In this document: positions 3,340 through 19,589 of the stretch, piece after piece
Layout of the letters: the number at the start of each line of letters is the position of its first letter
Numbering within the stretch: the stretch's first letter is position 1
Source of the DNA: a virus
Length of the DNA: 21,711 bases
Strand: one strand, 5' to 3'
IMG/VR virus record: IMGVR_UViG_3300042866_002576
Span: 1-21,711 of that record
Translations under genes and position numbers: made by a program
Notes under the pieces: model-generated
Databases searched by the model: none
Told to the model about the DNA's origin: nothing
The model's input: only the letters and a program-made list of their open reading frames with translations

Positions 3340-3738
3340 TCAGGTGGGCCAGACGTAGGGCAGATCAGGCGGCTCGCTCCAGCCGAATCGCCCGTAGTAC
3401 TCCGGCTCCTTGCGGAGCAGGTTGCTGCGATGCGAGGCGTGTAGGTCTACGCGCCCGATCCAAGGCGGGAGCGGCGCATCCGGGTCGTGATCCGGGATTG
3501 CCATCGTGTTGCGGTAGCCGCGCCCGATCCACTCCACGATGTTCTCGCGCAGGTAGTTGCGGAGCGCCCGGTCATAGCCTGACCACATCCTCGTGGCCGG
3601 GTGGTTGGCCCACCCACGCGACTCGCCCATCAGGGCGCGCAGGATCTGGTACGACTCGACTCGCTGCTTGCCCAGACGGCGAGTGTCCAGCACGGAGCAA
3701 GACTCGGCGAACCCGGGGTAGGGGAGGAAGGTCTGCAT
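3340..3738 (-). CDS. Pyrimidine-dimer DNA glycosylase-like protein (MSMEG_6728 type, 132 aa)
   Basis: The ATG at 3738 overlaps the upstream stop (ATGA) and gives MQTFLPYPGFAESCSVLDTR. The motifs LDTRRLGKQRVE (residues 17-28), ILRAL, GWANHPATRMW (42-52) and a following GYRNT are the hallmarks of the MSMEG_6728 / Pyr_excise-like family related to phage T4 endonuclease V, which excises UV-induced pyrimidine dimers by glycosylase/lyase action. The length of 132 aa fits. A longer Arg-rich extension upstream is open but belongs to the frame shadow of the preceding gene. It is the last gene of a leftward unit that starts at 4939. The role would be DNA repair or protection; activity on modified bases is possible but unproven. 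Confidence 0.8.
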   Translation of the reverse strand: MQTFLPYPGFAESCSVLDTRRLGKQRVESYQILRALMGESRGWANHPATRMWSGYDRALRNYLRENIVEWIGRGYRNTMAIPDHDPDAPLPPWIGRVDLHASHRSNLLRKEPEYYGRFGWSEPPDLPYVWPT

Positions 3739-4010
3739 CAGTCCATCTCCACCGGGTGGCCGAGCATCCACGAAGGCATGACATCGAGCAGGGAGGCATC
3801 CGGATCGCGCTGCGGCGGATCGCCGACAGCGCCGTCCGTGAGCCCGTGCAGCGCTGCGGAGGCGCACTCGATGGTGCGTTTGGCATCGCACGCGCACACG
3901 TTCACGGCATGATCGCACGGGCCGATCTCGGACAAGGAGGTACGGGCGAACTCAAGCAGGTCGCGGAGCGCTCGCACATCGGCGGCGCTGATCTTGGTTG
4001 CAGTCGTCAT
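3738..4010 (-). CDS. Hypothetical protein (90 aa)
   Basis: Start ATG at 4010 overlaps the upstream stop by four bases, and its stop overlaps the glycosylase-like gene. The product has an amphipathic helical N-terminus (AADVRALRDLLEFARTSLSEIG), three closely spaced Cys in PCDHAVNVCACDAKR (32, 39, 41), a fourth at 49, and an acidic/proline C-terminus. The Cys/His cluster could bind zinc. No family is recognised. Translational coupling on both sides supports it being a real gene. Confidence 0.65.
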   Translation of the reverse strand: MTTATKISAADVRALRDLLEFARTSLSEIGPCDHAVNVCACDAKRTIECASAALHGLTDGAVGDPPQRDPDASLLDVMPSWMLGHPVEMD

Positions 4011-5005: not shown

Positions 5006-5074
5006 ATACCCTACCCCGCCGTAGGCGCTAGTCCCCCTGACCGTCAAAGTGGCGACTTTCGGAGAAATTCTCGC
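5006..5074 (-). promoter_or_regulatory. Shared leftward promoter/operator element, copy 1
   Basis: On the minus strand the element ends in GGGGTAGGGTAT, with TAGGGT at 5013-5008 as the likely -10. The 26 bases 5006-5031 are identical in the copies at 10714-10739 and 12732-12757. They contain the dyad CGCC-GTA-GGCG where a -10/-35 spacer would be. No TTGAC-like -35 stands 17 bases upstream of the -10. A second block at 5046-5074, with the palindrome GAGAAATTCTC (5062-5072), matches 10753-10781 in 28 of 29 bases. A repressor or activator site is the simplest reading. Confidence 0.65.
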
Positions 5075-6668: not shown

Positions 6669-6710
6669 ACGCGACTGCGCTGCCCCAATGATACCCTAGA
6701 TCGGGGTAGG
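6669..6710 (-). promoter_or_regulatory. Leftward promoter with leader hairpin, variant copy 4 (ERF unit)
   Basis: The minus strand carries TAGGGTATCAT with the -10 TAGGGT at 6698-6693. Upstream is CTACCCCGATC in place of the 26-bp box of the other units. The predicted leader starts a short hairpin GCGC-AGUC-GCGU at 6680-6669, again 13 bases after the -10, with a loop ending in GUC. No good -35 is visible. The element occupies the whole 73-base gap between rusA and erf. Confidence 0.5.
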
Positions 6711-10713: not shown

Positions 10714-10781
10714 ATACCCTACCCCGCCGTAGGCGCTAGGGGGTGGGTCGGGAAAGTGGCGATTTTCGGAGAAATTCTCGC
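10714..10781 (-). promoter_or_regulatory. Shared leftward promoter/operator element, copy 2
   Basis: The 26-bp box at 10714-10739 is identical to copies 1 and 3, with TAGGGT (minus strand) at 10721-10716. The second block at 10753-10781 matches copy 1 in 28 of 29 bases, including the palindrome GAGAAATTCTC at 10769-10779. It drives the unit that begins at 10644. The spacer between box and block is 13 bases here and 14 in the other copies. Confidence 0.65.
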
Positions 10782-10970: not shown

Positions 10971-11705
10971 TCAGGCGAACAGGTCGCTGCCGAGGAAGAG
11001 GCGCGAGGACTGCTCGCGGGGTCGCAGCGCCATCGTACGCACGCCGCGCTCCGCGCCAACCGAGATCAGGAACACCTGATCGTCGGGCACCTGATACACG
11101 CGTCCGGGCAGCGCCTGCCGCGTGGACGCGTACCACACCGTGCCGCTCTTGGTCACGGACCAGAACAGCGGGTTGCCGCGCCGCGCAAGCACGATGCCCT
11201 CCGGCACGATGGCGGCGACCGCGCAGGGCGCGTACGGATCGACATCGTTGACCGCATCCGCGAAGCGCTTGAGGATGGAGCCCTCGCCTGCCTCGACATG
11301 GCGCGCAAGCACCTCGCTGTCGCACTCCGTGTACAGGCGCAGGCCGCGCTCCTCCGCGATGCTCTCGTAGTTGCCGATCACGCCGTTGTGAACGAGGAAG
11401 CAGGCCTCGCGCTGCCAACGGAACGGGTGCGGGTGGTTGTTGTCGTTCCGGCAGGCGTCCCCGTGCGTTGCCCACCGCGTGTGCCCGATCAGGCCGATCG
11501 CGCCCTCTCCCCGGGCGACATCCTCCGGGTGGGACACGACCGAGCCCGGGCGCTTGAACGAGAAGATCTGGCGATCCTCGTTCATCCAAGCGAGCCCGAA
11601 GGCGTGGTGCCCACGGTGCACCTGCGAGTTCGCGACGGAGACGAGCGCGGGGAGCGCGAGGGAGGGGAGCGGGACGGCGGAGTACATTCCGAAGATTCCA
11701 CACAT
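10971..11705 (-). CDS. Stand-alone class II glutamine amidotransferase (244 aa)
   Basis: The ATG at 11705 gives MCGIFGMYS, so after Met removal Cys2 is the N-terminal nucleophile of an Ntn-type glutaminase. Further family motifs are RGHHAFG (31-37), GHTRWATHG (74-82, glutamine-carboxylate Arg), HNGVIGNYE (106-114, oxyanion Asn and Gly) and ECDSEVLARH (127-136). Such domains hydrolyse glutamine and pass ammonia to a partner. In GlmS, PurF and AsnB the partner is fused; here the protein ends after the glutaminase domain. The gene lies 38 bases downstream of an amidoligase gene in the same unit, so that enzyme is the likely partner. The reaction product is unknown. Confidence 0.88.
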   Translation of the reverse strand: MCGIFGMYSAVPLPSLALPALVSVANSQVHRGHHAFGLAWMNEDRQIFSFKRPGSVVSHPEDVARGEGAIGLIGHTRWATHGDACRNDNNHPHPFRWQREACFLVHNGVIGNYESIAEERGLRLYTECDSEVLARHVEAGEGSILKRFADAVNDVDPYAPCAVAAIVPEGIVLARRGNPLFWSVTKSGTVWYASTRQALPGRVYQVPDDQVFLISVGAERGVRTMALRPREQSSRLFLGSDLFA

Positions 11706-11743
11706 GGTCGTTGCCTTTCTCGTTGGGGTTCTCGTTCGTTCGT

Positions 11744-12664
11744 TCAGGCGGCGTCCTGCCGCTGCTGGGACGGGCGCAGTCCGCTGCGCTCGTCGTGACG
11801 GATGGCGAGGGCCTTGAGCGTCTTCTCCGCAGCCTTGCGGGTGAAGACCTCGTGGCCGAGTTCGCCGTAGTTCTTGGCGCGGTGCCCGTGGCCGAACCAC
11901 AGGCGGCGGCACATGTAGCGCACCTGCTGCTCGCCGTGGGTGCTGCCGAACGCGGCCCACGAGCGGACGCGGCTGTCCCAACCACCGACATCGACGCCGT
12001 CGAGCGCCATCTCGACGAGGGTCAGGCACATCTGAACCCACGCGGCGATCTTGGCCGGGTTGAGCGAACCGGAGAACACGCGGAACTCGACGGTCTCCAT
12101 GCGGTTCGACAGGAAGTTGGCCCAGTTGAGGACGCGGTAGCGATCGGACATGTCGTGGCGACCGTAGCCGCGAGCGATCGTGTCCTTCGTCTGGCCCTGC
12201 CACGAGAACTGCTTGTTGAGTTCGGTCTTCACCGGGCGGCAGTAGCCGCCGCGACGGCGATCCGGGCTCCCGCTCATCGCGTACAGCGCGTCCTCGAACT
12301 GCCCGACGAGCATCGTGAGGCGGCGCATCGCGGCGACATCCTGCGTGGGGAAGGCAACGTGCACGTGCAGGCCGCACGAGTTGTTGGTCACGCCGCCCCA
12401 AGCCTTGATCTGCGCGCAGGCGGCGCGGATGTTGTCGAGGCCATCGCGGCCCTTGAGCACGGGGCTCACGAACTCGACCGCACGGCTGCTGCGGAAGTGC
12501 AGCGAGCCATCGGCGTCCGCACGCCACTTGCGGCCGGAGAACTCGGGCAGGCCGTTGACGGGGTTGCCAGCGTGGTAGCGGCCGACGGACACGGGGGCAT
12601 CGTGGGAGATGCCGCACTCGATCTCGATCCCGTAGGTCAGGTCAGCGGCGGTGATTCGGGGCAT
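11744..12664 (-). CDS. Amidoligase (COOH-NH2 ligase family, 306 aa)
   Basis: The ATG at 12664 follows GAGGAACGAGCA; an ATG at 12688 lies in front of the ribosome site and was rejected. The product has the Amidoligase_2 pattern related to the glutamine-synthetase/gamma-glutamylcysteine-ligase fold: YGIEIECG (11-18), WRADADGSL (47-55), AVEFVSPVLKG (62-72), NNSCGLHVHVAF (94-105), YRVLNW (177-182) and TVEFRVFSGSLN (191-202), supplying the Glu, His and Arg residues for Mg-ATP and substrate. Such enzymes join a carboxylate to an amine using ATP. It is the first gene of a two-gene unit with a class II amidotransferase, and diverges from the ParB/TET/glycosyltransferase genes. The substrate (DNA base, peptide or metabolite) is not known. 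Confidence 0.85.
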   Translation of the reverse strand: MPRITAADLTYGIEIECGISHDAPVSVGRYHAGNPVNGLPEFSGRKWRADADGSLHFRSSRAVEFVSPVLKGRDGLDNIRAACAQIKAWGGVTNNSCGLHVHVAFPTQDVAAMRRLTMLVGQFEDALYAMSGSPDRRRGGYCRPVKTELNKQFSWQGQTKDTIARGYGRHDMSDRYRVLNWANFLSNRMETVEFRVFSGSLNPAKIAAWVQMCLTLVEMALDGVDVGGWDSRVRSWAAFGSTHGEQQVRYMCRRLWFGHGHRAKNYGELGHEVFTRKAAEKTLKALAIRHDERSGLRPSQQRQDAA

Positions 12665-12701
12665 TGCTCGTTCCTCGTTCTCCCGCATCCGGCGGGTCGG
12701 A

Positions 12702-12720
12702 GCAGCGCGACATGCGCCAC
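12702..12720 (-). promoter_or_regulatory. 5' leader hairpin, copy 3
   Basis: GUGGCGC pairs with GCGCUGC (seven pairs, two G-U) around the loop AUGUC. It starts 14 bases after the TAGGGT element and 38 bases before the amidoligase start codon at 12664. One base change against copy 1 (C to U in the second arm) keeps pairing as G-U. Confidence 0.6.
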
Positions 12721-12731
12721 TGCCAGTAAGA

Positions 12732-12776
12732 ATACCCTACCCCGCCGTAGGCGCTAGTCCGGCGGAGCATCAAAGT
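12732..12776 (-). promoter_or_regulatory. Shared leftward promoter/operator element, copy 3 (amidoligase unit)
   Basis: The box at 12732-12757 is identical to copies 1 and 2, with TAGGGT (minus) at 12739-12734. The second block begins with AAAGT at 12772, at the same 14-base distance as copy 1, but then diverges. This unit may therefore lack the site formed by the GAGAAATTCTC palindrome. Confidence 0.65.
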
Positions 12777-12793
12777 CAGAAATTTGTCCGAAA

Positions 12794-12826
12794 GTTGCAA
12801 ACCCTCATGGCCGTAGGGGTTGCAAC
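12794..12826. promoter_or_regulatory. 12-bp inverted repeat, candidate operator
   Basis: GTTGCAAACCCT at 12794-12805 and AGGGGTTGCAAC at 12815-12826 are complementary with a single mismatch, separated by 9 bases. It lies just upstream of the amidoligase promoter in the divergent intergenic region. No T-run follows at close distance, so an operator is favoured over a terminator. Confidence 0.5.
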
Positions 12827-12861
12827 TCATGCAGGGAGTCCCAAGTCGGGGTTTCGGGCCC

Positions 12862-12902
12862 AAAGAAAACGCCCAGCAGGCCGCGTGGAGGCCAACTGGG
12901 CG
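12862..12902 (-). terminator. Intrinsic terminator, leftward
   Basis: On the minus strand CGCCCAG and CTGGGCG (12902-12896 and 12876-12870) form a 7-bp stem with an inner GGCC/GGCC pair, followed at once by TTTTCTTTG. This is the best classical terminator in the window. It implies a leftward transcript that begins somewhere between 12903 and about 13300, where no confident gene is seen. Confidence 0.6.
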
Positions 12903-13276
12903 GCACAATGGGCGGACCTGCGCGGCGTGTCGGCGGCACGCTTGCTCGCCACGCAGGCCTGAATCCGTGCGGTCGCAGCATACCGCATCCCGGGAGAGCC
13001 ATGAGGTCAGTTCCTCAAGGGCTGCAGCCGTGTCCGGTGGCATCGTGTCCGGATCTGGGTGGCCGCACGAACGTGCGGCCGGAGAGATGCGCGCTGACCC
13101 TAGCGCATCCCGAGGCTTCGCCTCGCGCTCGCATGCTGCCGCAGCGGATGGCCCGTCGAAATGGTGAAAGCAGCATCACGGGAAACCTCGTCCGGCTCCA
13201 TCCGGCTGATCTCCCGAGACTCCGGAAGCCCGGGGTCTCGGTGTTCCTGCACCTCACCCTCCAACTGCTCCGAGCC
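12903..13276. other. Divergent intergenic region, no confident gene
   Basis: The 374 bases hold a perfect 9-bp inverted repeat with a 2-base centre at 13061-13080 (GGCCGCACG-AA-CGTGCGGCC), a smaller hairpin CGAGGC-TTC-GCCTCG at 13111-13125, and on the minus strand TAGGGT at 13102-13097. A leftward frame from an ATG at 13043 starts MPPDTAAALEELTSWLSRDA and contains a plausible CDRTDSGLRGEQACRRHAAQVR stretch. It has no ribosome site and runs on through the terminator at 12862-12902 and the amidoligase promoter, ending only at 12642. It could be a small RNA, a decayed gene or a control region. Confidence 0.4.
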
Positions 13277-13305
13277 TTGACGCACCATCGGCAAGCGCGT
13301 AGGGT
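13277..13305 (+). promoter_or_regulatory. Rightward promoter placed for a leaderless mRNA
   Basis: TTGACG at 13277-13282, a 17-base spacer, and TAGGGT at 13300-13305. The start codon of the HTH gene is at 13313, eight bases after the -10, exactly where transcription should begin. No ribosome site fits in the seven bases between. This is a near-consensus sigma-70-type promoter with a TANNNT -10. Confidence 0.7.
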
Positions 13306-13312
13306 ATGCCGC

Positions 13313-13582
13313 ATGGGCAAACCAACCGCAGCCGTCATCCGTGATCCGCAGTCTTGGAAGTCAGCGATGCGTGATCATCTCCGCGCCAACGGGATCAGCA
13401 GGTACGACTTCGCACGCAGGTGCGCGAAGGCTGGCGTCTGCACGATCCACACCGCCGAATGCCTCCTTGCCGGGGAGGAAACCGTTACGGGACAACGGGT
13501 TCCGACGATGGCGATGGCGATCCGGATGTCCGAGCTGGCCGGCATGGAGTTCATGATGCTGACGAAGGAGGTCGCGAAGTGA
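13313..13582 (+). CDS. Small helix-turn-helix-like protein (89 aa)
   Basis: The ATG at 13313 stands right behind a promoter and has no ribosome site, as expected for a leaderless start. The product is helical: WKSAMRDHLRANGISRYDFARRCAKAGVCTIHTAECLLAG at residues 15-54 has the spacing of an Xre-like HTH, with ISRYDFARRCAKAG as first and turn helices. A Met-rich third helix region (MAMAIRMSELAGMEFMML) follows. Such proteins are phage regulators. It is the first gene of the rightward unit and faces the leftward amidoligase unit, so it is a candidate regulator of the divergent promoters. Its stop overlaps the ParB-like start (GTGA). Confidence 0.65.
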   Translation: MGKPTAAVIRDPQSWKSAMRDHLRANGISRYDFARRCAKAGVCTIHTAECLLAGEETVTGQRVPTMAMAIRMSELAGMEFMMLTKEVAK

Positions 13583-14256
13583 CTCCCAAGATCGAGCGAA
13601 TCGAGCGAGTCCCGATCGACTCCGTCATCCCCGACCCGGAGAACGCACGCCTCCACCCCGAGCGCAACCTCGCAGCCCTCGCGAACAGCCTGAAGCGCTT
13701 CGGGCAGCAGAGGCCGATCGTCGTCTCCAAGGACGGCATCATCATCGCCGGGAACGGCGCATACGGCGTGATGAAGTCCCTCGGATGGACCGAGGTCGTC
13801 GTCGCGTTCTCCTCGCTCGAAGGAGACGAGGCGCGTGCGTATGCGATCGCCGACAACCGCGCAGGCGAACTCGCTGCGTGGAACGACGATGTCCTGCGCA
13901 AGCAGCTCGACGAACTCTGCCAGATCAGCCCGGACCTGCTCTCCGCCGCAGGCTACGCGGAGGAGGAGCTGCGAGCCCTTCTCGAGCGCGCACCGATCAG
14001 CGTCGCGGAACTCGGGGCCACGGAGGGAGGCGTCTCCGAACTGCCTTCCGGATTCTCCAAGACGCTCGAGGAGTACGACGCCTCGCAGGTGCGCTCCCTC
14101 ATCTTCGCGTATGCGGCCTCGCAGTACGGCCTGATCGTGGAGGCCCTCGCTACCATCGCGGAGGAGAACTCCCTCGAATCCAACGCGGACGTGCTGGTGC
14201 ATCTCCTTGAAAGGGCAGGACATGCAGTCACTGAGCGCATCGAAGCGGACGATTGA
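13579..14256 (+). CDS. ParB/Srx-fold domain protein (225 aa)
   Basis: The GTG at 13579 overlaps the previous stop behind AAGGAGG. Residues 10-105 follow the phage ParB-like pattern: RVPIDSVIPDPENARLHPERNLAALANSLKRFGQQRPIVV, then KDGIIIAGNGAYGVMKSLGWTEV and RAYAIADNRAGELAAWNDD. In phages this domain often stands before a DNA methyltransferase domain; here a different helical region of about 90 residues follows and no methyltransferase motif is present. The usual GxGRxxA nucleotide-binding motif reads GNGAYGVM (58-65), so the conserved Arg is lost. It precedes a TET/JBP-type dioxygenase and overlaps it by 35 bases, suggesting a shared DNA-modification role. Confidence 0.8.
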   Translation: MTPKIERIERVPIDSVIPDPENARLHPERNLAALANSLKRFGQQRPIVVSKDGIIIAGNGAYGVMKSLGWTEVVVAFSSLEGDEARAYAIADNRAGELAAWNDDVLRKQLDELCQISPDLLSAAGYAEEELRALLERAPISVAELGATEGGVSELPSGFSKTLEEYDASQVRSLIFAYAASQYGLIVEALATIAEENSLESNADVLVHLLERAGHAVTERIEADD

Positions 14257-15058
14257 CCTCTCGCAGTACCGCCGCCGCAGGGCGAGCCTCGACGATTGCA
14301 GTCGGCTGATCTCGGAGGACACCATCGTTCAGGTGGAGGGGATGCCCGTCCTCGCGTACTACCATCGCCTGCCCGGCGACTTCTCGACGCTGCGCACGGC
14401 GCTCGGCCGCGTCAAGTACCAAGAGGGATTCCGCGCCACCCGCGCCAACCCGATGTTCACCCGGGCGCGCACGTTCGGATACGCGCCTCGCCTCGAGATC
14501 CGAAACCAGCCGTGCCGCATGGCGAGCCTCGGACGCGAGCAGCCGCTCGAGCACTCCGTCCTCCTCGAGGCAGCGCAGGTCGCGTACCAGTGCTACCGCG
14601 ATTCGTTTCCGCACCGGGCGCAGGCCCATGACGAACTCGCGACGAAGGTCCTGCCGGAGTACCGGATCGGCAGCACGCCTTTCACGTCCGGCATCGTGAA
14701 CGCGAACAACCCACTGCCGTACCACTTCGACCGGGGAAACTTCCGTGGCGTCAACTCCGCGATGCTCGGGTTCAAGAAGGACATCGAGGGCGGGCACCTC
14801 ACGATCCCGGAACTGGACCTCGCGTTCGACATCGGCGACCAGAGCCTGCTGCTCTTCGACGGGCAGAGCCTCCTGCATGGCGTGACCCCGTTCCGGCGCA
14901 CGACGGATGCGGCCATGCGCTACACGGTCGTCTTCTACAGCCTCGAAGGGATGTGGCGCTGCGAGCCCCCGGGCGAGGAGCTGAAGCACTTCAACCGGGC
15001 GCGCACCCGCAACGAGCGACTCCGGGCCGAGAAGGCATCCGCGAAGGAGCCAGAGTGA
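14222..15058 (+). CDS. TET/JBP-type 2OG-Fe(II) dioxygenase, probable DNA base oxidase (278 aa)
   Basis: The ATG at 14222 follows AAAGGGCAGGA; a TTG at 14207 is less likely. The double-stranded beta-helix core is clear: PLPYHFDRGNFRGVNSAML with H168 and D170 as iron ligands, GGHLTIPELDLAFDIGDQSLL, LFDGQSLLHGVTPF with the third ligand H219, and AMRYTVVFYSLEGMW with R233 for 2-oxoglutarate. The HxD...HG(V/T)TP...RYT.VFYSL spacing is that of the TET/JBP group, which hydroxylates the methyl group of thymine or 5-methylcytosine in DNA; phage members start base hypermodification. The N-terminal part (EGFRATRANPMFTRARTFGYAPR) also fits. It is followed by a glycosyltransferase through a GTGA overlap. 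Confidence 0.82.
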   Translation: MQSLSASKRTIDLSQYRRRRASLDDCSRLISEDTIVQVEGMPVLAYYHRLPGDFSTLRTALGRVKYQEGFRATRANPMFTRARTFGYAPRLEIRNQPCRMASLGREQPLEHSVLLEAAQVAYQCYRDSFPHRAQAHDELATKVLPEYRIGSTPFTSGIVNANNPLPYHFDRGNFRGVNSAMLGFKKDIEGGHLTIPELDLAFDIGDQSLLLFDGQSLLHGVTPFRRTTDAAMRYTVVFYSLEGMWRCEPPGEELKHFNRARTRNERLRAEKASAKEPE

Positions 15059-16008
15059 ACGGACCCAAGGTCGCGATCGCGTACCTCGCCAAGGCGAAGT
15101 TCGGCGGCTGGCCCACCTTTACGCGGCACCTCCGCGCTGCCCTGCTGGCGTCCGGCCTGTCGCCCGTCATCCGGACTCTGGGTGCCCGCACGGCCCCGAT
15201 GCCGATGGACTTCGGCCACGGCCTCGTCTGCAGGCGCATGGCCCTGAAGGACCTGCTGGCCTCGAAGATGCCCATCCTGATCGCGTGCGCCGACAAGGAT
15301 CACGCCGCCGCAGCCATGACCCTCGTAGGCGAGGGCAGCATGATCGTCGTGCACGACCCGGCGGAGAAGCACCTCGCGGGCATCCCGGCCGACCGCACCA
15401 TCGTGATCCGGCGCTCCATGAAGCAGCGCTCCCCGGCAGCACGCCTGATCCTGCACCCGTACGAGCGCAAGTCTCCTCCGCGCAATCCCTTGCACCCGGC
15501 GATCGCGCACTCCCGCGTGGACTTCGACAAGTACACGCACCTCATCCTCGAGGCACGGGATCTGGGGGCGGACATCAAGATCTACGGGGCTCCGAACCCC
15601 ATGTACGTGCACTTCAAGCTGCACCCGAAGTGGCCCGGATTCCAGCCCGAGCCGTTCGAGCGCAACGCCCACGCAGGAGCGGACTTGTGCGCTACCGCAC
15701 GCGCCGTCGTGGACATGAGCGCGATCAAGGGGGACGGGGGCGGATCGCAGTACTCGTTCCTCGAAGCATGGGACGCACGCGCTCCGCTCATCATCAACCG
15801 CAAGTGGGTGACGGGGTACGACAGCGACGAGATGCAGCCCGGACACAACTGCCTCGCGGCGAGCGATGGCAAGGAGATCAAGGAATGCCTCGAAGCGCTC
15901 AAGGACCGCGCCCTCGCAGACGCCCTCGTACGCAACGGGGAAGCAAGCCTAGAGCAGCACTCCCCAGCCGTCATTGGTGCTGCATACCGCTCCCTCCTCG
16001 GAGTTTAG
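15055..16008 (+). CDS. GT-B-like glycosyltransferase, probable DNA-base glycosyltransferase (317 aa)
   Basis: The GTG at 15055 overlaps the dioxygenase stop and has AAGGAG upstream. The product begins VAIAYLAKAKFGGWPTFTRHLRAAL, a strand followed by the glycine-rich loop of a GT-B N-domain. Nucleotide-fold strands recur (PILIACAD, SMIVVHDP, TIVIRR). The second half has IKIYGAP, ARAVVDMSAIKGDGGGSQYSFLEAWDARAPLIINRKWVTG (216-254) with a family-type E-A-W...PLI segment, and a closing helical region. Glycosyltransferases of this sort follow TET/JBP genes in phages and glycosylate hydroxymethyl bases. The sugar donor and base are unknown. Another sugar-transfer role is possible but less supported by context. 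Confidence 0.7.
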   Translation: MNGPKVAIAYLAKAKFGGWPTFTRHLRAALLASGLSPVIRTLGARTAPMPMDFGHGLVCRRMALKDLLASKMPILIACADKDHAAAAMTLVGEGSMIVVHDPAEKHLAGIPADRTIVIRRSMKQRSPAARLILHPYERKSPPRNPLHPAIAHSRVDFDKYTHLILEARDLGADIKIYGAPNPMYVHFKLHPKWPGFQPEPFERNAHAGADLCATARAVVDMSAIKGDGGGSQYSFLEAWDARAPLIINRKWVTGYDSDEMQPGHNCLAASDGKEIKECLEALKDRALADALVRNGEASLEQHSPAVIGAAYRSLLGV

Positions 16009-16009
16009 G

Positions 16010-16495
16010 ATGAGCCGGAACAACCCGCGCAGCAACCCGAGGCCTCGCAAGCCTCCATCCCCGCGACCCCCGCAGGGGAAAGGGGAGGGAGCGCCCTCAC
16101 CCACGCGCACGCCCGCACCCGCGCACACACATGAGGCGGAGGTGGCGTCGACCGCCCTCGCGCTCGCAGGGTCATCCGAGTCCATGCGGCTGATCCGCAG
16201 CGCCGTGCGCAACCGATGGATCATCCCGGAGCGCCTGTTCGAGGCAGCACCCGCGATCGTGGCCCGAATCCTGCTCGACCCCGGCACGGACATCAGGGAC
16301 AAGATCCGCGCTACTCAGACGCTCGCCATGCTCGACCGGAACAACACAGAGCTCCTGCTCGAGTCGCACCGGATCGAGAGGCTGCAAGAGGGATCGAGCA
16401 CGGACAACGTGGCAGTCGTCGCCAGCCTGTCCGATGAGCAGATCGCAGCGGTCGCCAAGACCATCCTGCCCCCGAAGGCAAAGCGCAAGTCGTGA
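16010..16495 (+). CDS. Probable small terminase subunit-like protein (161 aa)
   Basis: The ATG at 16010 lies one base after the previous stop. The N-terminal 50 residues are Pro/Arg/Ser-rich and probably disordered (PRPRKPPSPRPPQGKGEGAP). The rest is helical: SMRLIRSAVRNRWIIPERLFEAAPAIVARIL, DIRDKIRATQTLAMLDRNNTELLLESHRIERLQEG, SDEQIAAVAKTIL. The RLIR.A(V/I)R.RW.IP...... pattern is common in proteins directly before a phage large terminase. It is coupled to that gene by a GTGA overlap, which supports a small-terminase or DNA-recognition role. No sequence signature proves it. Confidence 0.6.
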   Translation: MSRNNPRSNPRPRKPPSPRPPQGKGEGAPSPTRTPAPAHTHEAEVASTALALAGSSESMRLIRSAVRNRWIIPERLFEAAPAIVARILLDPGTDIRDKIRATQTLAMLDRNNTELLLESHRIERLQEGSSTDNVAVVASLSDEQIAAVAKTILPPKAKRKS

Positions 16496-17943
16496 ACGCC
16501 GAGGTGCTTACGGCATCCGCAGCGGTCGCCGCCGCGCAGGAGAGCCCTGCCGCATTCGTCTCGCTGTGCCTGTCCCGCGAGGTGTCCATGCTGCAGCGGG
16601 AACTGCTGAATCACGCACTCGTGAATCACTCGTGGTACGCGGAGCTGCCTCGTGGACACGCCAAGACCAGCACGGGCGCCTACCTCGTCGCATGGTGGCT
16701 CGGCGTCCGGCCGGAGACGCGGTTCAAGATCGTCGGGCAGAACGACGAGGCGGCGAGCGCCACGACCCGGTTCATCCGGGAGATCGTTCGCTCGCAGGCC
16801 TTCCGCGCCACCTTCCCACACGTGCGGCTGAAGCCCGGAGAGGACACGGTCATGTCGTGGAGCGTCACGGCCCCGGGCCTTCCGGCGCGGCGCGACCCAT
16901 CCGTGCAGGGATCTGGCGTGTTCGGCAGAACGGGCGGTCGAGCGGACGTCCTGTGGTTCGATGACATCTGCGACCTGCGCAACTCCGTGCTGCAGCCAGC
17001 GTTGCGATCGCAGGTGAAGGAGGCGGTCGCGAACATCTGGATGCCGATGCTCGACCCGTCGGCGTCCCATCCGAGCCGCACTTGGCGGACCGCCACGCCC
17101 TTCCATACGGACGACCTGACGGCCGATTGGAGACGGGCGCACGGAGACGAGGGAACGCTTCTGCGCCGACCCTGCGTCGGCCCGATCAGCCCGTGGCCCG
17201 AGGTGTTCACCCCGCCCGTGCTGGAGGCGAAGCGCACCGAGATGGGCGCGATGGCCTACGCACGCGCCTACGAACTCGTACCCCTGTCGAGCGACCTGCT
17301 CGTCTTCCGCCCAGAGTGGATCCAGCACTACCGCTACGAGGAGCTGCCGACCGTCACCCGCACCATCGCGGCCATCGACTGGGGATACGGCAAGAAGGAG
17401 CAGGAGCGGGACGATCCCGACTACTCGGTGTGCCTCATCGGCGAGGTCGACAGCCGCAGGCACCTGTACCTGACGGACATCCTGCGCGTGCGCGAATCCT
17501 TCCCGGTGTTCGCTCGGCAGGCCGCAGCCCTGCTCGAGCGCAGGGGAGCATCGGCGGTTCTGGCCGAATGCAACGGGCCGCAGAAGGGCATCTTCGACCA
17601 GTTCCGGGACATGACAAACCAGCCGATGGTCGCGGTCGAGCGGACGACCGACAAGCACATGAGGGCAGCAGGCTCGCAACCCTTCGTCGAGCAGGGCCGG
17701 CTGCACTTCCCCGTCGACGCATCCGGCAAGATCCTGCCTGCGTTTCAGGTGGTATGCGACGAGATGCTCGCGTTCCCCGCAGGGAGCCACGACGACACCG
17801 TGGATACTGTGGTTGACCTATGCGGAGAGGCGGTACGCGGCACGCTCTCTGCGGAAGAGAAGATGCCCAAGCGCATCGAGCGCCCCGACGCGATCGGCCG
17901 GATGTTCTCGGCGCGTTCCGCGAAGCGTCCGTTCTTCACCTGA
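16492..17943 (+). CDS. terL: Terminase large subunit (483 aa)
   Basis: The GTG at 16492 overlaps the previous stop. ATPase motifs are ELPRGHAKTSTGA (51-63), a Walker A variant of the phage PRGHxKT type, and ADVLWFDDICD (151-161), the Walker B with its acidic pair. The C-terminal RNase H-like nuclease has IDWGYG (295-300, D296), VLAECNGPQKGIFDQF (356-371, E359) and GSHDDTVDTVVDL (431-443, D434 or D435). The enzyme drives DNA into the prohead using ATP and cuts concatemers. Length and motif order are complete. Gene order small terminase-large terminase-two genes-portal is usual. Confidence 0.93.
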   Translation: MNAEVLTASAAVAAAQESPAAFVSLCLSREVSMLQRELLNHALVNHSWYAELPRGHAKTSTGAYLVAWWLGVRPETRFKIVGQNDEAASATTRFIREIVRSQAFRATFPHVRLKPGEDTVMSWSVTAPGLPARRDPSVQGSGVFGRTGGRADVLWFDDICDLRNSVLQPALRSQVKEAVANIWMPMLDPSASHPSRTWRTATPFHTDDLTADWRRAHGDEGTLLRRPCVGPISPWPEVFTPPVLEAKRTEMGAMAYARAYELVPLSSDLLVFRPEWIQHYRYEELPTVTRTIAAIDWGYGKKEQERDDPDYSVCLIGEVDSRRHLYLTDILRVRESFPVFARQAAALLERRGASAVLAECNGPQKGIFDQFRDMTNQPMVAVERTTDKHMRAAGSQPFVEQGRLHFPVDASGKILPAFQVVCDEMLAFPAGSHDDTVDTVVDLCGEAVRGTLSAEEKMPKRIERPDAIGRMFSARSAKRPFFT

Positions 17944-17969: not shown

Positions 17970-19589
17970 ATGGCAGACATCGACCTGACCCCCACGGCAG
18001 AGATGGCTGCGAACGCCACGCGAGGCCTCGAACTGCGGAAGAAGCACGGCAAAGGAGGCACCGCCGTAGGCGTCGCCCGGGCTCGTGACATCAAGAACCG
18101 GGCATCCCTGTCTCCGGACACCGTCCGCAGGATGCACTCATTCTTCTCGCGGCACGAGGGCAATCAGGCGGGTGGCGAGGACGACGCCGGATACATCGCG
18201 TGGCTCCTCTGGGGTGGCGATGCCGGGAAGTCGTGGGCGAAGCGCAAGACCGAGCAACTCAACGACAAGCAGGAGAACGCACGCATGGAACGCTCTGACG
18301 AACTGGCCGAGGCCCTGATGAAGCCCGTCACGTACTCCAACCACAGGCAGATGGAGAAGGTGGTGTCCGCCGCCATCGCCCACGCGAAGAAGGTGGGCGA
18401 CGACGACCTGCTGGAGCTCGCGGAGGAGACGGGGCAGGAGATCCTTGCGCTTCGCTCCCGTGCGGCGCGTCCGGACCCAAAGAGAATGATCGGCACGCCG
18501 AGGGATTACATGAAGGCGAAGCTGATGCCCCTGACGTACCAACAGCTCGTCAAGCAGTGGGTTAAGTCCACGCAGAAAAGCGCGGCGAGTGCCCCGCCGT
18601 ACACACAAGACGGGAGGAAGCAGCTGATCAAGGAGATCCTCGAAGCGCATCACGGGCCATCATCCTTCACCCGCCCCGGCGCGAAGGCGAAGTTCGCCGC
18701 TCGCCTCGGCTCGCATCCACAGAAGAAGAAGATCATCGAACTGCTCCGAACCAGCGACGATGTCGGTGATTGGGACGACAAGGGAGTGATCGTGTACGAC
18801 AAGTCCGCCATCGCTGCCGTCAAGAAGATGCTCGAGAAGAACGGCATCAAGCCGATGGTCAATGTCGGACTCGCTGATGATTACAGCGGTGGCTCTTACC
18901 ACTCCCGTGCGGCACGCCCCGGCGCGAAGGCGAAGTTCACCCTGATGGATGCGCTTCGGAGCATCACGCCGATCGAGAAGAGCATCTCCGCAGCGAGGGA
19001 ACTGCTCCGCAACGACTCGAAGCAGGGGAACTGGAGCAACTGCGTCGGGATGTCGATGTCGCTGTCGAACCTGTACATGAAGATGGCGAAGCAGTACGAG
19101 GCCGCGAGCCGCATGGCGCAGATGTCCCGCCCCGGCGCGAAGGCGGTGATGAGGCAAACACTTCAGGCAATGCATGATGGAATGCAGTGGAAGGTTGTAA
19201 TCCCATCCGGTGCGGCGTGGTACAGCGATGACGGCAAGCGATGGACTAAGAAGCATGGCGAGCCTGTGCCATCATCGGAAGTGAAGCAGTATGAAATCAA
19301 GTTGGGCACGGGGTTTGCCCGACCCGGCGCAAAGGCAAAGATGGGCATCGAGTACAGCGAGGAAAGCCGCAAGATCATCAAGAAGGATCTAAAGGACTTG
19401 GCTGAACTTGCGAAGGCGTACAGAAACAAGGAGGCCGAACGCTTGGCGCTCCGACACCTGCAAAGCGTCTTGAAGCCCTCAGCAACGGCGCAGACGTGGA
19501 TGGAGGCCGAAGATGCCGTCCATCACATCATGGATGTGATGCATGGTGAATACTCCCGCCCCGGCGCGAAGGCGAAGATCAGAACATGA
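17970..19589 (+). CDS. Modular protein with repeated RPGAKAK linkers (539 aa)
   Basis: The ATG at 17970 lies at the predicted transcription start with no ribosome site. Residues 17-92 form a known-looking phage domain: GLELRKKHGKGGTAVGVARARDIKNR...LSPDTVRRMHSFFSRHEGNQAGGEDDAGYIAWLLWGGDAGKSWAKRK, whose pieces GGT.VGVARARD, VRRM.SFF.RHE and IAWLLWGGD..K.WA recur in phage proteins of unknown function near packaging genes. After a helical stretch come five copies of RPGAKA(K/V) at residues 235, 316, 387, 451 and 530, plus a degenerate RPDPKRM at 167. The segments between them, 57-74 residues each, do not resemble each other. One has WYSDDGKRWTKKHG. The function is unknown; a polyprotein or a multi-domain adaptor is possible. 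Confidence 0.78.
   Translation: MADIDLTPTAEMAANATRGLELRKKHGKGGTAVGVARARDIKNRASLSPDTVRRMHSFFSRHEGNQAGGEDDAGYIAWLLWGGDAGKSWAKRKTEQLNDKQENARMERSDELAEALMKPVTYSNHRQMEKVVSAAIAHAKKVGDDDLLELAEETGQEILALRSRAARPDPKRMIGTPRDYMKAKLMPLTYQQLVKQWVKSTQKSAASAPPYTQDGRKQLIKEILEAHHGPSSFTRPGAKAKFAARLGSHPQKKKIIELLRTSDDVGDWDDKGVIVYDKSAIAAVKKMLEKNGIKPMVNVGLADDYSGGSYHSRAARPGAKAKFTLMDALRSITPIEKSISAARELLRNDSKQGNWSNCVGMSMSLSNLYMKMAKQYEAASRMAQMSRPGAKAVMRQTLQAMHDGMQWKVVIPSGAAWYSDDGKRWTKKHGEPVPSSEVKQYEIKLGTGFARPGAKAKMGIEYSEESRKIIKKDLKDLAELAKAYRNKEAERLALRHLQSVLKPSATAQTWMEAEDAVHHIMDVMHGEYSRPGAKAKIRT
18672..19577 (+). repeat. Dispersed 21-bp coding repeat, five copies (RPGAKAK)
   Basis: Copies lie at 18672-18692, 18915-18935, 19128-19148, 19320-19340 and 19557-19577, always in the same frame. 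Copies 1, 2 and 5 are identical over 21 bases (CGCCCCGGCG then CGAAGGCGAAG). Copy 3 ends in GTG (Val). Copy 4 differs at several third positions only (CGA CCC GGC GCA AAG GCA AAG), so the peptide is unchanged. The residue before each copy is Thr, Ser or Ala, and that after it is Phe, Met or Ile. Confidence 0.9.

Follow-up and report, generated by a model that had tools for sequence, protein, structure and literature searches.

Base J synthesis in trypanosomatids relies on JBP1/2 and a glucosyltransferase. The TET/JBP enzyme hydroxylates the base within DNA, and glycosylation follows (PMC12730594). In phages, a ParB-like protein lies directly or nearly directly upstream of Tet_JBP, just before the terminase, in Coopervirus (Mycobacterium phage ChrisnMich gp1-gp4) and in Rhodococcus phage Tonitrus (genes 1-7); the Tonitrus set has been read as thymidine hypermodification (PMC11955845). 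Other phage systems place a TET-associated glycosyltransferase (TAGT, PF20691) in the slot after TET. Separately, Amidoligase_2 and a class II glutamine amidotransferase (GAT) lie close together among the early genes of phiEco32, LUZ24-like, RIO-1 and Arthrobacter Laroyevirus phages (PMC3890496, PMC5498523).

We analysed a stretch of an uncultivated bacterial virus in which both kinds of genes meet (IMG/VR virus record IMGVR_UViG_3300042866_002576, positions 1-21,711; a 21.7-kb fragment, hereafter the window). An earlier note had described here a single DNA hypermodification island arranged around a control region of about 650 bp, and its gene content and layout were borne out: all six island genes are intact open frames, and 648 nt separate the two divergent starts. 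The amidoligase and GAT genes face leftward, and the HTH, ParB-like, TET/JBP and GT-B genes face rightward, followed by the terminase. The arrangement is not due to chance, because both blocks are kept in relatives. The features are:

10971..11705, minus strand: class II GAT (GATase_6, 1.2e-11; PHROG 14519, 3.8e-25)
11744..12664, minus strand: Amidoligase_2 carboxylate-amine ligase (PF12224, 8.7e-24; alternative upstream start at 12688)
12732..12757, minus strand: leftward promoter/operator-like repeat CTAGCGCCTACGGCGGGGTAGGGTAT (direct repeat D1, upstream of the amidoligase)
13277..13307, plus strand: candidate rightward promoter TTGACG-17 nt-TAGGGTAT (by eye, before the HTH gene)
13313..13582, plus strand: small HTH-like regulator (clade conservation upstream of ParB)
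13579..14256, plus strand: ParB-like N-domain protein (PHROG 620, 2.7e-34)
14222..15058, plus strand: TET/JBP-type 2OG-Fe(II) dioxygenase (PF12851, 1.1e-12)
15055..16008, plus strand: GT-B glycosyltransferase (PF13524, 6e-4, weak; GT-B fold match)
16010..16495, plus strand: terminase small subunit, TerS (position and conservation)
16492..17943, plus strand: terminase large subunit, TerL (PHROG 38, 4e-59)

The rightward genes are tightly coupled to the terminase genes: the ParB-like gene shares 4 nt with the HTH gene and 35 nt with TET, the glycosyltransferase gene overlaps TET by 4 nt, and TerS and TerL overlap by 4 nt. Further copies of the CTAGCGCCTACGGCGGGGTAGGGTAT element were found at 10714-10739 and 5006-5031, and GTAGGGTAT occurs 4 times against 0.01 expected; the promoter-like repeat of the amidoligase-GAT pair also occurs at early genes. 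In the record L019, an element with the same TAGGGTAT core lies 5′ of the amidoligase. A sigma-70 scanner called no promoter in the region, including the by-eye candidate, and Rfam and tRNA scans returned no matches.

The combination of TET and a glycosyltransferase, one half of the proposed island, has good support from the recurrence of ParB-TET-decorator-TerS-TerL cassettes. Of 91 related loci, 83 have ParB as the gene immediately before TET (contig ends cut five of the eight exceptions), and a recognised decorator lies near TET in 72 of the 91 (TAGT 32, FkbM 15, GT-B 15, kinase 11, ADDT 3, GAT 2, C5 methyltransferase 1; some loci hold more than one). The ParB-TET cassette recurs before the terminase, and the slot after it takes interchangeable decorators (TAGT, GT-B, FkbM methyltransferase, hmU-type kinase or ADDT). 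The window fits it, with ParB directly upstream of TET and the decorator downstream, then TerS-TerL. The window's GT-B family follows TET in 15 loci, and the sister phages L003 and L005 carry TAGT in the same slot. The kinase, ADDT and aGPT-PPlase partners known from thymidine hypermodification also occur in ParB-TET cassettes; we found these three enzymes in relatives only, and the scan of the island genes and of other genes in the window showed none. L230 has TAGT without an amidoligase, but its TAGT lies outside the ParB slot.

TET itself is assigned above the curated threshold (PF12851, 48 bits against a cut-off of 34.9), and its active site (H168xD170, H219 and R233) is invariant across 18 sequences. 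The ParB-like protein falls under the curated ParB_N cut-off (2.1e-4) and is strong in PHROGs (2.7e-34). PADLOC returned nothing beyond the ParB component of a methyltransferase model; in the clade member L180 the same ParB family, in the same slot, is fused to an N6/N4 methyltransferase. The ORF at 13313-13582 shows 50-51% identity to its L002 and L003 counterparts and no Pfam or family match; its putative 'HTH' label comes only from the earlier note and conservation. The downstream enzyme matched PF13524 only below the cut-off (6e-4), did not match PF20691, and gave no matches in a sequence search of the PDB. Its AlphaFold model (pLDDT 71), however, retrieved GT-B/GT4 enzymes in Foldseek (best 6eji, E 1.6e-7, TM 0.64), T4 beta-GT among them (1e-4). 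The model and the sub-threshold Pfam match together suggest a glycosyltransferase.

In the leftward block, the amidoligase is above the PF12224 cut-off, has GxExE, CGLHxH and EFR motifs that are invariant or nearly so, and adopts a GS/YbdK-like fold by model and Foldseek; a sequence search of the PDB found no matches. The adjacent GAT is a stand-alone domain with an N-terminal Cys (MCGIFG), and NCBIfam places it, far under the cut-off, with GlmS-type GAT domains. GAT adjoins the amidoligase in relatives too, and the pair stays together while moving relative to TET. In L003 and L005 it sits behind Gp157/ERF/RusA and some 11 kb separate it from TET, and the sister L107 keeps the pair in a 29-kb record without TET. 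A single integrated island as the default was therefore rejected. We consider it probable that the locus combines two modules meeting at one divergent control region, a late HTH-ParB-TET-GT hypermodification cassette and a separate amidoligase-GAT unit.

The pair's adjacency to TET is not conserved, so the extra amide step proposed in the earlier note is not supported by gene order. That note named as a refutation that the amidoligase pair and the dioxygenase pair never co-occur elsewhere, which does not strictly hold. Outside the genus the families rarely meet (one amidoligase among 42 other TET records; one TET among 50 unrelated amidoligase records and none among another 9), yet L064 and L121 each carry both units, with a long distance between them. 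Further searches gave three TET loci in genome contigs, in Siphonobacter and Ignavibacteria records, no amidoligase in genome contigs, and no confirmed GAT matches in viral contigs with over-specific patterns; Arthrobacter phage Bumble, which has TET, has no annotated amidoligase in an annotation covering part of its record. In the TerL clade to which the window belongs, the pair is confined to phages with a ParB-[TET]-glycosyltransferase cassette before TerS (4/4 against 0/12 lineages). Its carriers (the window, L002, L005 and L107, the last lacking TET) fall in at least three separate lineages of the TerL tree. The association has p 5.5e-4 with all four carriers and 0.011 without the window and L002, on small counts and post hoc. 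This tracking argues against complete independence of the modules.

One question is what the pair modifies. That it acts on peptidoglycan peptides of the host or on some other carboxylate at the cell surface, in superinfection exclusion, and lies next to TET by coincidence, has about an even chance; such a role has been proposed for phages of the phiEco32, LUZ24-like and RIO-1 types. Among phages that lack TET this pair is widespread, in L003 and L005 it sits in an early, recombination-gene block, and cell-wall modification is a prediction that PMC5498523 and PMC10580990 give with reference to Iyer et al. 2009. However, the scan of window genes did not show the wider cassette of PMC5498523, with its second ligase, ATP-grasp and gamma-glutamyl cyclotransferase, and coincidence leaves the tracking with the DNA-glycosyltransferase cassette unexplained. 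Since a sister phage lacking TET still carries the pair, the TET-oxidised base is probably not what it acts on. A carboxylate of the cell wall or of a small molecule is a more likely substrate, and the sugar of the DNA glycosyltransferase has a minority chance.

A second question is the base that TET oxidises. We could not detect a C5-cytosine methyltransferase (PF00145) in the window fragment or in a 38-kb sister record, and it was absent from 91 of 92 TET records, 30-60 kb records among them. The sole positive was L101, of the same family, with the methyltransferase beside TET, which indicates that the search works. The near-absence of these enzymes from TET records makes thymine (hmU, base-J-like) appear a likelier target than cytosine, and disfavours 5mC, which the methylated-DNA test in the earlier note presumes. 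The choice draws on not finding such an enzyme: 5mC could come from a methyltransferase of the host, and since the window is a fragment, the rest of the genome could hold a gene for a methyltransferase or for making the sugar. Oxidation of 5-methylcytosine made by a phage or host methyltransferase, giving glycosylated hmC as in C5-methyltransferase-linked phage TETs, seems doubtful to us: it has in its favour L101 and the phage C5-methyltransferase/TET/GT sets that PMC12730594 cites from Burke et al. 2021, and against it the survey and the thymidine-hypermodification enzymes that sit with several TETs.

A single pathway, in which the pair amidates the sugar, precursor or oxidised base of the TET-GT product, is unlikely: the clade association, a contiguous ParB-TAGT-amidoligase in L127 and class II GAT genes inside the ParB-TET cassettes of L102 and L104 speak for it, but the clade counts are small, there is no enrichment outside the clade, the L102 and L104 GATs accompany ADDT rather than an amidoligase, the pair is under a different repeated promoter-like element, and pair and TET part in L003, L005 and L107. 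A related reading, in which the pair supplies an amidated building block (e.g. a uronamide sugar nucleotide or amino-acid amide) that GT-B or TAGT attaches to hydroxymethyl pyrimidines, is distinctly unlikely; if true, it would operate in phages with and without TET and yield an amide-bearing glycosylated base, of which we found no description in the literature consulted.

Genes, motifs, predicted folds, order and co-occurrence were observed; what chemistry the two modules carry out, on which base, when and to what biological end is inferred. The HTH-ParB-TET-GT module would be a late cassette, translationally coupled and continuous with the terminase, with the ParB-like protein as its DNA-binding partner. 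Once the DNA is replicated, TET would hydroxylate the methyl group of a pyrimidine in it, with conversion of thymine to hmU most likely and of 5mC to hmC less so; the GT-B enzyme would add a sugar to the new hydroxyl just before packaging, and the sugar may protect virion DNA from host nucleases. In the second module, GAT would split ammonia off glutamine for the GS-fold ligase, which would use ATP to join it to a carboxylate.

The cassettes share one conserved slot before the terminase, holding a ParB-like protein and interchangeable modifiers (methyltransferases, TET with sugar transferases, or TET with a thymine kinase/transferase set), which offers a practical route to predicting and testing DNA modifications new to phages. 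A real link to the amidoligase would add amide chemistry to glycosylated DNA; if there is none, a mistaken pathway is kept out of annotation.

Compared with the described systems, the window's TET shares only about 36-37% identity with the ChrisnMich and Tonitrus proteins; in ChrisnMich no glycosyltransferase gene separates TET from TerS, and Tonitrus has aGPT-PPlase2 and a kinase in its place. The window's glycosyltransferase occupies the TAGT slot but belongs to another family, of GT-B fold and closer to GT4 and T4 beta-GT. The thymidine hypermodification pathway (hmU kinase, ADDT/aGPT-PPlase) is recruited by the same ParB-TET cassette family in L010, L098, L102 and L104, whereas the window has a glycosyltransferase as its decorator. 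With thymine as the target, the system would likely work much like base J synthesis, but with phage proteins, a ParB partner and an unrelated gene setting. Unlike the pairs of phiEco32, LUZ24-like, RIO-1 and Laroyevirus phages, the window's pair adjoins a TET cassette, and no ATP-grasp or second ligase was seen in the window. The ParB-TET-glycosyltransferase cassette is of an already known type, and there is only a hint that the amide pair is linked to the coating of the DNA.

All of the genes that the earlier note had named were found at 10971-16008 of the window, a fragment of 21,711 bases from the IMG/VR viral collection. They are arranged as follows:

within 10971-16008, minus strand: class II glutamine amidotransferase (GAT) and amidoligase
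648 nt: gap separating the amidoligase from the HTH-like gene
within 10971-16008, plus strand: HTH-like, ParB-like, TET/JBP-type dioxygenase (TET) and glycosyltransferase genes, in that order
3' of the glycosyltransferase gene: terminase, then Mu-type portal

HTH and ParB, TET and the glycosyltransferase, and the terminase small and large subunits (TerS and TerL) each overlap by 4 nt, ParB and TET overlap by 35 nt, and the glycosyltransferase gene ends 2 nt before TerS. Given these overlaps and the 2-nt spacing, the TET-glycosyltransferase block is probably read with the packaging genes. Further along, 17970-19589 encodes a protein whose segments are separated by RPGAKAK repeats, at least four of them in the window, with a copy number that differs among relatives. 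The Pfam match of the glycosyltransferase was sub-threshold only; a model from eight relatives matched GT-B enzymes, T4 beta-glucosyltransferase being in the match list, and that of the amidoligase matched YbdK and glutamine synthetase.

The earlier note had read both gene groups as one candidate hypermodification island with a suggested further amide-forming step. We found that the amidoligase-GAT pair is a unit separate from the TET cassette. GAT lies close behind the amidoligase in nearly all nearest relatives of the window amidoligase. The sister phages L003 and L005, two close kin of the window (TerL about 71%, portal 83%), retain the pair, but there it follows Gp157, ERF and RusA at a distance of about 11 kb from TET, which speaks against a single island. 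These phages also retain the Pyrimidine-dimer DNA glycosylase family gene of the window (3340-3918, minus strand; Pyr_excise 2.5e-20). Joint occurrence of these families elsewhere does exist, but is rare: of 42 additional TET records, one (L064) has Amidoligase_2; of 50 records of amidoligase relatives, one has TET (L121, roughly 25 kb off and in an FkbM cassette), and of 9 from the first scan, none. Two amidoligase-GAT relatives, L108 (5121-7219) and L110 (4281-6249), carry beside ParB, in the modification slot, a methyltransferase and a PAPS-reductase domain protein (in L110, an ORF similar to it).

A repeated minus-strand element ending TAGGGTAT lies 5' of the amidoligase and other leftward genes, and in the related locus L019 an element with this TAGGGTAT core stands 5' of the relocated amidoligase. 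The window copies are:

5006-5031, 10714-10739 and 12732-12757, minus strand: element CCTAC-N6-GTAGGGTAT, promoter/operator-like and 5' of leftward genes
6691-6698, minus strand: further copy of the TAGGGTAT core
13300-13307, plus strand: TAGGGTAT core before the HTH gene

A link between the pair and the glycosyltransferase cassette remains in the TerL clade, sampled by a TerL scan unconditioned on either module. Among 50 clade records searched whole, only L002, L005 and L107 (a sister phage), in addition to the window, carry the amidoligase. ParB and a glycosyltransferase, with or without TET between them, precede TerS in 4/4 of these carriers versus 0/12 other lineages taken to be informative, and at least three changes on the TerL tree are needed to place the four. 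This arrangement has a probability of 5.5e-4 when all four are counted; leaving out the window raises it to 2.2e-3, and leaving out L002 as well to 0.011. If L230, whose TET-associated glycosyltransferase (TAGT, PF20691) is located outside the ParB slot, is scored as glycosyltransferase-positive, the three values become 0.0027, 0.0088 and 0.033. All of these values are descriptive, because lineages were grouped by eye on the tree and the test was picked after the data were seen. Three records with a whole or partial cassette (L195, L197 and L212) are too short to reveal presence or absence of the pair. A ParB-TAGT cassette precedes TerS in L107 (7241-8888), L195 and L197, and TET was not found anywhere in the records of L107 and L195, nor in the short L197 locus. 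In L127 (2877-5368), ParB, TAGT and amidoligase lie near one another on the same strand, with no TET in its 32-kb record.

Amidoligase-GAT pairs are known from other phages, with a predicted role in cell-wall alteration (PMC5498523, PMC10580990, PMC3890496). As a candidate reading, the pair may carry out an amide step on phage DNA. Since L107 carries the pair without TET, such a step would imply a substrate used by the glycosyltransferase rather than the very carbon that TET oxidises.

A C5 cytosine methyltransferase (PF00145) was present in 1 of 92 TET records, L101, where it immediately adjoins TET; the search was therefore able to detect such enzymes. This near-absence, with hmU-type kinases and ADDT in several cassettes, points to thymine as the TET target, a reading from absence in records of which many are fragments and for which a host enzyme could supply 5mC. 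ParB-TET cassettes in L102 (2297-4612) and L104 (2852-4787) include a class II GAT, ADDT and P-loop kinase, and in L102 also GNAT; the GAT might supply ammonia to ADDT, giving an aminomethyl-U type base. In L098 (1876-3930), L105 and L106, ADDT, an FAD-dependent DAO oxidase and a kinase lie 5' of TET, without ParB (identified by Pfam in L098 and by sequence clustering in the other two), a set reminiscent of thymidine hypermodification, in which hmU would come from TET.

ParB-TET cassettes recur among phages. An alignment-based IMG/VR scan gave 365 relatives, the best 80 of which, with the first scan, made 91 loci in all; ParB is directly 5' of TET in 83, and of the other eight, five are truncated by contig ends. 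The slot that separates TET from terminase holds TAGT in 32 loci, the window GT-B family in 15, FkbM methyltransferase in 15, P-loop kinase in 11, ADDT in 3 and GAT in 2, counts that are approximate in membership, being based on profiles built from locus clusters, and that include loci with more than one occupant. L003 and L005 have TAGT where the window has GT-B, and the same slot in L180, a clade member, holds a fusion of a ParB domain with an N6/N4 methyltransferase. The name 'queuine tRNA-ribosyltransferase', widely given to this TET family in PHROG 6059 and RefSeq phage records (H3, H7, H10 and others), is an annotation error. Among cultured phages, Coopervirus and Rhodococcus phage Tonitrus have the ParB-TET cassette, and the Tonitrus gene set was interpreted by its authors as thymidine hypermodification (PMC11955845). 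The TET-glycosyltransferase half of the window is a convincing further example of this already known cassette type.
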